NCBI RefSeq assembly: GCF_000687145.1
Contig: NZ_JMFG01000016.1
Location: 138-64,137, forward strand
Length of the DNA: 64,000 nt
Direction: 5' to 3'
Origin: Thermoanaerobaculum aquaticum
GTDB lineage: Bacteria > Acidobacteriota > Thermoanaerobaculia > Thermoanaerobaculales > Thermoanaerobaculaceae
Within the stretch, counting starts at the first letter, position 1; the number at the start of each line of letters is the position of its first letter. Below are positions 23,166 to 27,166 of the stretch, one piece after another. Both the position numbers and the translations under genes were made by a program. The notes under the pieces were generated by a model, which saw only the letters and a list, made by a program, of their open reading frames with translations, did no database searches and was not told the origin of the DNA.

Positions 23166-24387
23166 CACGATGACGGACGGAGCGCGCGAAAGGGGTAAAA
23201 GCGTGGACATTTTTCAAAAGTGCTACGACTTCCGCGATGCCGATGAGGTAAAACAGGCCGGGCTTTACAGCTACTTTCGCATGATCTCCTCGGCCCAGGA
23301 ACCGGTGGTGATGATGAACGGCCGGGAGGTGGTAATGCTGGGCTCCAACAACTACCTGGGGCTCACCAACCACCCGGAGGTGAAAAAGGCGGCTCAGGAA
23401 GCCGTGGCCAAGTACGGCACGGGTTGTGCCGGGTCACGGTTTTTGAACGGCACCCTGGATATTCACGTGCAGCTGGAGGAAAAGCTGGCGCAGTTCATGC
23501 GCAAGGAAGCAGCTTTGACCTTTTCCACCGGCTTTCAGGTGAATCTCGGCACGGTTTCCTGCCTGGTGGAGCGGGGGGACATCGTTTACCTCGACAAGCT
23601 GGACCACGCCTGCATCATTGACGGGGCGCGGCTGGGTTTTGGCACCGTGGTGAAGTACGAGCACAACGACGTGGCCGATTTGGACCGCCGCTTGTCCCTC
23701 AAGGACCCTTCCCGCGGCGCTCTGGTGGTGGTGGATGGTGTTTTCTCCATGGAGGGCGACATCGTCAACCTCCCGGGCCTGGTAGAGGTTTGCCAAAAGC
23801 ACGGCGCCCGCCTCATGGTGGACAACGCCCACGGCATTGGCGTTTTGGGGGAGCACGGGCGCGGCACCGCCGAGCACTTTGGCCTTGAGGACAAGGTGGA
23901 CCTCATCATGGGCACCTTCTCCAAGTCGCTGGCTTCGGTGGGAGGGTTCATTGCCGGCGAGGAGAGGGTCATCAACTGGATCAAGCACCGCGCCCGCTCG
24001 TTGATCTTTTCGGCGGCTCCCCCACCGGCCTCGGTGGCGGCGGTGCTCAAAGCCGTGGAGATCATCGAGCGCGAGCCGGAACGCCGGGCCAAGCTGTGGG
24101 AAAACACCGCCTTCATGAAGCGTGAGCTGGCCAACTTGGGTTTTGACACCGGCGACTCCCAAACCCCGGTGATTCCGGTGGTGGTGGGTGAAGACCGCCT
24201 GGCGTTCTTCATGGCCAAACGCCTGGAGGAGGAAGGGGTGTTTGTGAACCCCGTGATTTCCCCGGCGGTGCCTCCCGGCCGCGCGTTGCTCCGCACCTCC
24301 TACATGGCCACCCACACCCGGGAGCATTTGGAAAGAGCGTTGGCGGCGTTTGCCAAAGTGGGCCGCGAGGTGGGCTTGATCCCATGA
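23152..24387 (+). CDS. Serine palmitoyltransferase-like alpha-oxoamine synthase
   Basis: A 411-residue PLP enzyme of the alpha-oxoamine synthase family (KBL, BioF, SPT). The PLP lysine is K258 in GTFSKSLASVGG; H-bonding motifs DNAHGIGVLG and GSNNYLGLTNHP are present. The family condenses an amino acid with an acyl thioester. The N terminus VDIFQKCYDF, the RTSYMATHT region and the neighbours favour serine palmitoyltransferase over KBL or BioF. ATG 23152 follows GGAGGGAAGG; ATG 23170, with TAAGAT 8 nt upstream, is a credible alternative. It overlaps genes on both sides. Confidence 0.8.
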   Translation: MVRFDTMTDGARERGKSVDIFQKCYDFRDADEVKQAGLYSYFRMISSAQEPVVMMNGREVVMLGSNNYLGLTNHPEVKKAAQEAVAKYGTGCAGSRFLNGTLDIHVQLEEKLAQFMRKEAALTFSTGFQVNLGTVSCLVERGDIVYLDKLDHACIIDGARLGFGTVVKYEHNDVADLDRRLSLKDPSRGALVVVDGVFSMEGDIVNLPGLVEVCQKHGARLMVDNAHGIGVLGEHGRGTAEHFGLEDKVDLIMGTFSKSLASVGGFIAGEERVINWIKHRARSLIFSAAPPPASVAAVLKAVEIIEREPERRAKLWENTAFMKRELANLGFDTGDSQTPVIPVVVGEDRLAFFMAKRLEEEGVFVNPVISPAVPPGRALLRTSYMATHTREHLERALAAFAKVGREVGLIP

Positions 24388-25520
24388 GCGTACTGCCCCT
24401 CCGCCTGGAGCCGGTCCAAAGCCGCGAGCAGTGGCGGCACTTCCTGGACCTGCCCTGGCGGATTTATCGTGGCGACCCTTGCTGGGTGCCACCGCTCAAA
24501 AAGCAAGTCAGGGGTTACCTGGACCTCAGCCACCCGTTTTACGCTTACGGACGGGCGGAACGCGAGGTCTTCCTGGCCTACCGCGGGAGCCGGCCGGTGG
24601 GGCGCATTGCCGCCATCCTCAACCGCGCCCACAACCAGTTCCACGGGGATCGCTGGGGCTTTTTTGGCTTTTTTGAGTGCGAGGACGACCCCGAAGCCGC
24701 CGGTGAGTTGCTGGCGGCAGCGGCCCGCTGGCTTAAGGAAAAGGGTTGCGAGGCCATGGTGGGGCCGGTCAACCCCTCCACCAACTACGAGTGTGGTTTG
24801 CTGGTGGAGGGCTTTGACACCCCGCCCACGGTGATGATGACCTACAACCCGCCGTACTACGCTTCGCTTTTGGAAAGCTGGGGGCTCGTCAAAGCCAAAG
24901 ACCTTTACGCCTACTGGTCCCCGGTGCATCCCGGCTCGTTGGATCGGCTCCGCCGCTTTTCGGAGCGCACCCAGGAGCGGGAGCCCAGCCTCACCGTTCG
25001 TGCCGTCAACCTCAAGGACTTTGCCAACGAGGTGCGGATCATCCAGGACATTTACAACAAGGCCTGGGAAAAGAACTGGGGGTTTGTGCCTACCTCCGAC
25101 GAGGAGTTCGCCTGGCTGGCCCGGGAGCTGAAGCCTTTAGTGGACCCCAAGCTGCTCTACATTGCCTTTTACGACGGGGACCCTGCGGGCTTTTTGCTTG
25201 CCCTCCCCGATGTCAACCCCGCCCTGGCCGAGCTCAACGGCAGCATGGCTAACCCCTTCCGGCTCTTGCGGGCCTACTGGGTGGGGCGCAAACCAGTGGG
25301 CTTGCGCCTCATCACCATGGGGGTCAAGCAGCAGTACCGCTTGCGGGGCATTGAGGGCGTGATGTTCTACCACGGGCTGCAAGCCGCTTTGGATCGCGGC
25401 TACCGCTGGTGCGAGTACTCCTGGATTCTGGAGGACAACGAGCTGGCCAAGCGCACGGTGCGGCTCATGGATGCCAAGCTCACCAAGGTGTACCGGCTTT
25501 ACAGCAAGCCGCTGGCGTAA
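24384..25520 (+). CDS. GNAT-like acyltransferase (bacterial ceramide synthase candidate)
   Basis: A 378-residue protein resembling large GNAT-fold proteins often found beside serine palmitoyltransferase genes. The central block GPVNPSTNYECGLLVEGFD and the C-terminal acyltransferase-like region (LRLITMGVKQQYRLRGIEG) are its clearest features. A proposed role is N-acylation of the sphingoid base or its 3-keto precursor, as by the unrelated-to-eukaryotic enzyme bCerS of Caulobacter. That assignment comes from context. ATG 24384 overlaps the upstream stop (ATGA), ending a tightly coupled four-gene run from queD. Confidence 0.7.
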   Translation: MSVLPLRLEPVQSREQWRHFLDLPWRIYRGDPCWVPPLKKQVRGYLDLSHPFYAYGRAEREVFLAYRGSRPVGRIAAILNRAHNQFHGDRWGFFGFFECEDDPEAAGELLAAAARWLKEKGCEAMVGPVNPSTNYECGLLVEGFDTPPTVMMTYNPPYYASLLESWGLVKAKDLYAYWSPVHPGSLDRLRRFSERTQEREPSLTVRAVNLKDFANEVRIIQDIYNKAWEKNWGFVPTSDEEFAWLARELKPLVDPKLLYIAFYDGDPAGFLLALPDVNPALAELNGSMANPFRLLRAYWVGRKPVGLRLITMGVKQQYRLRGIEGVMFYHGLQAALDRGYRWCEYSWILEDNELAKRTVRLMDAKLTKVYRLYSKPLA

Positions 25521-25542: not shown

Positions 25543-25571
25543 AAAAAAGATGCGGGACCGAAGTCCCGCAT
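25543..25571 (-). terminator. Rho-independent terminator with UUCG loop
   Basis: On the minus strand ATGCGGGAC (25571-25563) pairs perfectly with GTCCCGCAT (25558-25550) around a TTCG tetraloop, followed by C and six Ts. It terminates the candidate small RNA and any read-through from the aldehyde dehydrogenase gene. Confidence 0.9.
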
Positions 25572-25654
25572 TGCGGTGGGTTCCCCGGAGTGGTGCACCG
25601 GGTCTCCTCACCGCGCTGGGGGGAGCAAGCGCAAACGAGCGCCAGGTGCGCTCT
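25543..25654 (-). ncRNA. Candidate orphan small RNA (about 112 nt)
   Basis: A complete-looking RNA gene on the minus strand: promoter (25689-25661), predicted start near 25654, and a strong terminator ending at 25543. From the 5' end it folds into hairpin GAGCGC/GCGCTC (25653-25637), a longer stem GCGGTG/CACCGC enclosing CCCGG/CCGGG, and the terminator hairpin. No open frame is evident. I checked for signal-recognition RNA (no GGAA apical tetraloop with its conserved flanks), tmRNA and 6S features and saw none. Function unknown. Confidence 0.5.
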
Positions 25655-25660
25655 AAGAAA

Positions 25661-25689
25661 AATATGTGACTGAAAACGCTCTGTGTCAA
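25661..25689 (-). promoter_or_regulatory. Promoter of the candidate small RNA
   Basis: TTGACA (25689-25684), a 17-bp spacer and CATATT (25666-25661) on the minus strand. It lies in the gap between the aldehyde dehydrogenase stop and the terminator, where no protein gene follows. Confidence 0.55.
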
Positions 25690-25732
25690 CAGAGTGTCGA
25701 GCAAGCGTAAGCGCCGGCTTGCTTCCCGGCTC

Positions 25733-27166
25733 CTACGCACCCGGGGGCTTGGTAAGCACCAGAAGCCGAAGCTCAGTCATTTCTTCAAAGGCCCAAGCCG
25801 GGCCCTCCCGCCCAAACCCCGATTGCTTCACGCCGCCGTAGGGCATGGGGTCGGTACGCCAGGAGGGGATGTCGTTGGCAATGACCGCCCCCACCTCGAT
25901 GCCCTCCCAAGCTTGCTGGATCTTGCCCCAATCGCGGGTGAACACCCCGCACTGTAAGCCAAAGCGCGAGTCGTTTACCTTGGCAATGGCTTCCGCAAAG
26001 TCCTCAAAAGGCTCCAGGACCGCCACCGGCGCGAACGCTTCCTCGCACCAAAGGGGGTGGTCGTGGGGCACGTTTTCCAGAAGCGCGGGCCAAACCACCG
26101 AGCCTTCCCGTCGAAAGCGGGTTAAAAGCGTGGCGCCACGGGTGCGGGCGCTTTCAATCCAGTCCACGATGCGTTGGGCATCGTAAGCGGAAATCATGGG
26201 TCCGCAGAGGACCTGGCTGTCGGTGGGGTTGCCGGTGGGAAAGCGTTCGGCGGCGGCCACCAGGGCCTCTCGCATGGTTTGGTAAAGCTCTTTGGCCACC
26301 AGCACCCGCTGCACGGAAATGCAGGACTGCCCGGCGTAGGCAAAGGCCCCCAGGGCAATGCGGTGGGCGATGACCTCGGGATCACCGGCGTCCTTTTCCA
26401 CGATCACCGCCGCATTGCCCCCCAGCTCCAGAGTGACCCGCTTGTCCCAGCACTGCTTCTTGAGGTTCCATCCCACCGCTGCCGAGCCGGTGAAGGTTAA
26501 AAGTCGCACCTCGGGCGCTTCCAGCAGCTGCTGAACCGCGTCCCCGGCACAAGGAAGCACGGAAATCGCCTCCGGCGGAAGCCCCGCCTCCACCAAGATG
26601 CGGCCCAGGTGCAAAGCCGGCGAGGGCGTTTGCGAAGCTGGCTTGAGGATGATGGGGCAGCCCGCCGCCACCGCCGGCGCCATCTTGTGGGCCACCAGGT
26701 TCAGGGGAAAGTTGAACGGGGTAATGCCCACCACCACCCCAACGGGCACCCGGCGAAGCAAGCCCCAGCGGCCCTCCCCGGAGGGGAACCCGGAAAGGTC
26801 CAAGAGCCTGGCTTGCGCACTGCGGGCCACCCGCGCCGACTCCAGCAGGGTTTCCACGCAGCGGTCAGCTTCAATGCGGGCCAGCGCCAGCGGCTTTCCC
26901 GCTTCCTCCACCAGAAGCTGGGCCAAAAACTCCCGCTCTTGCTGCACCCGCGCTGCGGCGTTTTCCAGAATCGCCGCCCGCCGGTGGGGGGGGAGGCTGG
27001 CGATGGAGGTGCGGGCGTCTTTGGCCGCCTCCAGCGCCAGGCGCAACTGCTCGCCTTCGGCCTGCGCCACCTCCGCCACCACGGCCCCATCGAAAGGGGA
27101 GAGGATTTTCCTTGCGGTTTTGCCCTTCGTCACTGTGCCGGCCAGGAGCAAACCTTCTTTGCGCAT
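25733..27166 (-). CDS. NAD(P)-dependent aldehyde dehydrogenase
   Basis: A 477-residue ALDH-superfamily enzyme that oxidises an aldehyde to the acid. The catalytic cysteine is C282 in GQSCISVQRV and the general base is E247 in TLELGGN. The cofactor region ITPFNFPLNLVAHK is near residue 150. The substrate cannot be read from sequence; the form resembles glyceraldehyde-3-phosphate, lactaldehyde or succinate-semialdehyde dehydrogenase groups. The ATG at 27166 follows GGAGGG. A strong terminator hairpin lies only 24 nt upstream of the start, an arrangement that may attenuate expression. Confidence 0.92.
   Translation of the reverse strand: MRKEGLLLAGTVTKGKTARKILSPFDGAVVAEVAQAEGEQLRLALEAAKDARTSIASLPPHRRAAILENAAARVQQEREFLAQLLVEEAGKPLALARIEADRCVETLLESARVARSAQARLLDLSGFPSGEGRWGLLRRVPVGVVVGITPFNFPLNLVAHKMAPAVAAGCPIILKPASQTPSPALHLGRILVEAGLPPEAISVLPCAGDAVQQLLEAPEVRLLTFTGSAAVGWNLKKQCWDKRVTLELGGNAAVIVEKDAGDPEVIAHRIALGAFAYAGQSCISVQRVLVAKELYQTMREALVAAAERFPTGNPTDSQVLCGPMISAYDAQRIVDWIESARTRGATLLTRFRREGSVVWPALLENVPHDHPLWCEEAFAPVAVLEPFEDFAEAIAKVNDSRFGLQCGVFTRDWGKIQQAWEGIEVGAVIANDIPSWRTDPMPYGGVKQSGFGREGPAWAFEEMTELRLLVLTKPPGA

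Follow-up and report, generated by a model that had tools for sequence, protein, structure and literature searches.

In the genome of Thermoanaerobaculum aquaticum (Acidobacteriota), a short intergenic element very probably represents a real and previously uncatalogued small RNA gene, whose promoter, 5′ hairpin, C-rich strand, second hairpin and terminator recur as a unit at the same place, with nearly equal length, in the other two Thermoanaerobaculum species compared (G001 and G002; T. aquaticum is G000). Somewhat less firmly, we favour the reading that the element encodes a genus-restricted, ~112-nt, trans-acting regulatory sRNA with a C-rich seed and its own transcription. From the letters of a 64,000-nucleotide stretch of DNA (the window), an orphan gene for a small RNA, equipped with a promoter and a terminator of its own, had originally been predicted here, and the presence of all its parts at the same place in both relatives supports that proposal. 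T. aquaticum MP-01 is a strictly anaerobic hot-spring isolate of Acidobacteria subdivision 23 (PMC4056298), and the host genome comprises 2.66 Mb in 68 contigs (96%-complete).

Organization of the locus

The RNA element lies within a 212-bp gap separating a GNAT-type gene on the plus strand from a convergent aldehyde dehydrogenase gene on the minus strand. Both flanking genes adjoin the RNA in all three genus members, and each genome carries one clear copy of the RNA gene. The features of the locus are as follows.

24384-25520, plus strand: GNAT-type acetyltransferase gene (Pfam PF00583, weak, above the cut-off), convergent with the RNA gene
25543-25654, minus strand: predicted small RNA of ~112 nt, conserved in three species, with the start inferred ~7 nt past the -10 element
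25543-25548, minus strand: terminator U-run of 6 U (CTTTTTT after the stem), longer in both relatives
25550-25571, minus strand: intrinsic terminator with a perfect 9-bp stem and a UUCG loop, ATGCGGGAC-TTCG-GTCCCGCAT
25573-25614, minus strand: second hairpin, with outer stem GCGGTG/CACCGC, inner stem CCCGG/CCGGG and loop TGCACCACT
25615-25628, minus strand: C-rich stretch UUGCUCCCCCCAGC, proposed seed
25637-25653, minus strand: 5′ hairpin GAGCGC-ACCTG-GCGCTC, helix kept and sequence variable
25661-25666, minus strand: -10 element CATATT, separated by 17 nt from the -35 element
25684-25689, minus strand: -35 element TTGACA, identical in G001 and G002
25733-27166, minus strand: aldehyde dehydrogenase gene (Pfam PF00171), upstream of the RNA and on the same strand

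The description of the RNA as three successive hairpins is fair when the terminator is counted as the third, behind the 5′ hairpin and a longer second one. The ~112 nt of structured RNA close at 25571-25543 with the terminator, whose UUCG-capped 9-bp stem is perfect and is followed by the U-run. The predicted fold has an energy of -54.5 kcal/mol, as compared with a mean of -40.1 kcal/mol for shuffled sequences (z-score, -3.9); with z-scores of -4.4 and -2.8 for the two relatives, all three RNAs beat their shuffles.

Conservation within the genus

In the three-way alignment, 65 of the 79 core RNA columns are invariant, whereas the corresponding shares of four-fold degenerate sites are only 26% and 29% for the flanking genes. 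This difference (P about 1e-22 in a binomial test that treats sites as independent) indicates strong purifying selection on the core. By region, all 14 columns of the C-rich strand are invariant, as are 21 of 22 in the terminator and 30 of 43 in the second hairpin region, as against 8 of 27 in the 5′ hairpin region. An 18-nt segment located 40-57 nt ahead of the terminator, TTGCTCCCCCCAGCGCGG, is conserved as well as the terminator itself, and the near-invariant sequence of the terminator stem, as judged from the alignment, exceeds the needs of termination. Chance is ruled out mainly by this conservation and not by the consensus scans, which are not decisive alone because the terminator scan found 2 terminators against 3.6 expected, a count not above chance.

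The stems, on whose conservation in close relatives the original prediction had staked its claim, are kept in both species. Two compensatory pairs were identified, one in the 5′ hairpin, where A-U becomes G-C, and one in the outer stem of the second hairpin, where U-A becomes C-G. Pairing is kept in 97% of the alignment cells that make up the stems, a share that drops to 33-49% once the stems are slid. The covariation is suggestive only, since three sequences were available and the score was reached by 49 of 500 shuffles, and the small number of species likewise limits every statement on structure made here.

Predicted promoter and the upstream gene

The predicted minus-strand TTGACA-17-CATATT is present at 25689-25661, and the two boxes match the consensus at 10 of 12 positions. 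The -10 element reads CATATT in G000 and G002 and TATATT in G001, the spacer measures 17 nt in all three species, and the GTCA immediately upstream of the -10 element is invariant too. In a scan of 2.5 kb for sigma-70-like sequences, this predicted promoter was the sole match, with 0.2 given by shuffles. In our reading, a sigma-70-type promoter would start the RNA just past the aldehyde dehydrogenase gene, the end of which is 43 bp from the -35 element, and the RNA's own UUCG terminator would end it ahead of the convergent GNAT gene. Separately, a 6-bp inverted repeat, CTCTGTTGACACAGAG, spans the -35 element (25679-25694, minus strand) in the window species only and is absent from the relatives.

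The same arrangement could also yield a real RNA that is mainly processed from the 3′UTR of the aldehyde dehydrogenase mRNA, with the promoter-like boxes minor or unused. Downstream of the aldehyde dehydrogenase stop codon (25733), a sequence scan found no convincing terminator ahead of the RNA; read-through transcripts would hence end at the terminator of the RNA, and the adjacency of the two genes is kept in three species. However, TTGACA-17-YATATT is kept with exact spacing while the rest of the intergenic spacer has diverged, and read-through alone needs no such boxes; we regard 3′UTR processing as an unlikely main source of the RNA. A read-through transcript from the aldehyde dehydrogenase gene may nevertheless exist besides the RNA's own transcript.

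The C-rich strand, Hfq and possible targets

In the mechanism that we propose for a trans-acting sRNA, the 5′ and second hairpins would present the invariant C-rich strand UUGCUCCCCCCAGC, which would base-pair in trans with G-rich Shine-Dalgarno leaders and thereby block or change translation. UUGCUCCCCCCAGC is the complement of G-rich Shine-Dalgarno sequences and the most constrained unpaired element of the RNA, and seed pairing would involve mRNA leaders complementary to UUGCUCCCCCC. Binding of Shine-Dalgarno regions through unpaired C-rich seeds is established for several other sRNAs; in Staphylococcus IsrR, single-stranded C-rich regions pair with Shine-Dalgarno sequences, and FsrA has been named in the same context (PMC9410917). 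The candidate resembles IsrR in being a small RNA with stem-loops, a C-rich region that may be single-stranded and could pair with Shine-Dalgarno sequences, and a Rho-independent terminator, but the Rfam search revealed no sequence relation to IsrR, and its host is a GC-rich, Hfq-bearing acidobacterium, in which G-rich sites are far less selective. An accessible C-rich region for target binding is used by PmaR of Agrobacterium tumefaciens, which binds its targets mostly away from ribosome-binding sites (PMC6234868); PmaR differs in forming one spoon-like stem-loop, and a sequence relation to it was sought through the Rfam search only.

The sRNA would probably act with Hfq, and its terminator U-tail would serve as an Hfq-binding site, as Hfq binds terminator U-tails in other bacteria. 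Each of the three genus genomes contains two Hfq-family matches, of which one is strong and the other weaker, at about 37 bits; in G000 they are located at C5:96637-96813 and C24:16329-16487.

In the target search, only generic G-rich sites were obtained, with no target standing out. The seed complement is about 4-5 times commoner than the reversed control, probably because of G-rich Shine-Dalgarno sites. Of the long complementary stretches inspected, most lack a plausible start codon just downstream. Sites of the form GGGGGGAG-N-ATG precede frames that were judged by eye to be GAPDH-like, NuoD-like, CcmD-like (in G000 and G002) and others; these genes are not claimed as targets, the sites being ordinary G-rich Shine-Dalgarno sequences.

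This outcome of the target search would also fit an RNA that acts not by mRNA pairing but as a structural RNA or by binding a protein (as a decoy or scaffold, for example via the C-rich strand), as would the near-invariance of the C-rich strand and even of the terminator sequence. Against such a function, neither 6S, SRP nor any other Rfam family matches the RNA, and beyond the paired terminator stem the three-species alignment shows no conserved GGA motifs of the kind found in CsrA decoys. We assign protein binding or a structural role a low probability, and retain mRNA pairing by the C-rich seed as the preferred mode of action.

Two further conserved sequences came to light. The sequence GGGGGGAG[A/C]AGTTCGGTCATG is kept in three genomes (G000:C24:38163-38183, G002:C28:84654-84674 and G001:C77:5342-5362; loci L136-L138) and is followed by a similar start, LLSQT..IVT..FHVERG, with different frame lengths (72, 203 and 51 aa). 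In genus g5 of the same family, the loci L019, L022, L023 and L032 have a terminator-like hairpin and T-run, AAAGTGGGACTCCGGTCCCACTTTTTTTT, with TTGCTGCTTTCGA before the hairpin; this hairpin lies shortly ahead of the start codon of a gene that looks by eye like rimP and is possibly a leader attenuator conserved in several species.

Predicted accessibility of the seed

The mean predicted unpaired probability of UUGCUCCCCCCAGC at 37 °C is 0.60 in G000, 0.69 in G001 and 0.38 in G002, so that two of the three predicted folds leave the strand mainly unpaired. In the predicted fold of G002, the C-rich strand is paired to its own downstream G-rich strand. The same pattern among the species is predicted at 60 °C, less strongly, and G001 has a 7-bp equivalent of this masking hairpin by eye. 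The masking in G002 could be an artefact of prediction or a switch. As a two-state riboregulator, the RNA would have its seed free when the GCGGUG/CACCGC stem is formed and masked when paired to the downstream G-rich strand. Since the masking hairpin is dominant in G002 and has its equivalent in G001, exposure of the seed in this thermophile could be brought about by a ligand, a protein or temperature, although we hold this model, which derives from the predicted folds, to be quite improbable.

Comparison with known RNA families and distribution

Rfam searches returned no family for the RNA, either at the gathering threshold over the whole window or at E-values up to 10 over the RNA region, RF01685 included. 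The covariance models of Acido-1 (RF01686) and Acido-Lenti-1 (RF01687), noncoding RNA candidates described from Acidobacteria (PMC2864571), likewise gave no match at E-values up to 10. The original prediction had set the RNA apart from SRP RNA, tmRNA and 6S RNA, and this distinction holds: the SRP RNA (RF00169) of the genome is encoded elsewhere (G000:C2:160429-160527), the window contains no tRNA or tmRNA, and RF00013 (6S) has no match in the window or in the G000 genome. A divergent 6S RNA was considered, since the genome has no RF00013 match and 6S RNA is also an independent small RNA gene. However, 6S RNA forms a long rod of 150-200 nt with a central open-promoter-like bubble, whereas the candidate, with ~112 nt, separate hairpins and a terminator, lacks a long closing stem with a central bubble, and a 6S identity was rejected. 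The RF00013 search matches 5 of 14 control genomes; a 6S RNA of G000 is either absent or too divergent.

The RNA gene is most likely restricted to the genus, as far as sequence comparison reaches. A DNA search of 100 relatives revealed no convincing relative beyond the genus; the blastn match in G021 was rejected as a homologue, being 29 nt only and falling where a glycosyltransferase-like reading frame ends. The exact 18-nt motif TTGCTCCCCCCAGCGCGG occurs among 149 genomes in the genus only, and a covariance-model search of 149 class genomes with strict filters yielded no convincing relative, the matches, inspected by eye around the locus centres, looking like unrelated UUCG-type terminators or unrelated sequence. 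A terminator-free model run against 37 order genomes gave only weak matches, never with promoter, C-rich strand and terminator together. A short-query DNA search of 396 genomes sampled from the phylum brought no further case; such a search would miss diverged copies, and even G001 was absent from its matches. Phage, plasmid and viral collections gave no match. Within the order, the GNAT gene is widespread, and RNA-like sequence is absent downstream of it in the other family genomes read (G003 and G004 left out).

The resemblance of the inspected R1-model matches outside the genus to other UUCG-type terminators or unrelated sequence would fit a conserved terminator of the convergent gene pair, with the remainder of the element due to chance, and convergent genes commonly share a terminator. 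Yet the stem has no U-run on the plus strand, and TTGCTCCCCCCAGCGCGG, the second hairpin and the promoter boxes are conserved too; because the promoter and the region upstream of the terminator are both conserved, a shared terminator alone is a very improbable explanation of the locus. That the locus encodes a short protein is still less credible: in each species some frames continue uninterrupted across the terminator, but no reading frame is conserved in the three-species alignment, in which there is no common start and indels shift the frames, and the likeness of the peptides just mirrors the invariant nucleotides.

Implications

The literature search found no sRNA work on Thermoanaerobaculum and no paper on Acidobacteria in which Hfq, sRNA and start-site mapping come together. 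The gene described here is a further example of a common kind and overturns nothing. As a conserved and mapped candidate with a defined possible seed in the cultivated T. aquaticum MP-01, it would provide a starting point for the study of Hfq- and sRNA-dependent regulation in the phylum, and it may bear on what keeps a C-rich seed selective when the genome is rich in GC.
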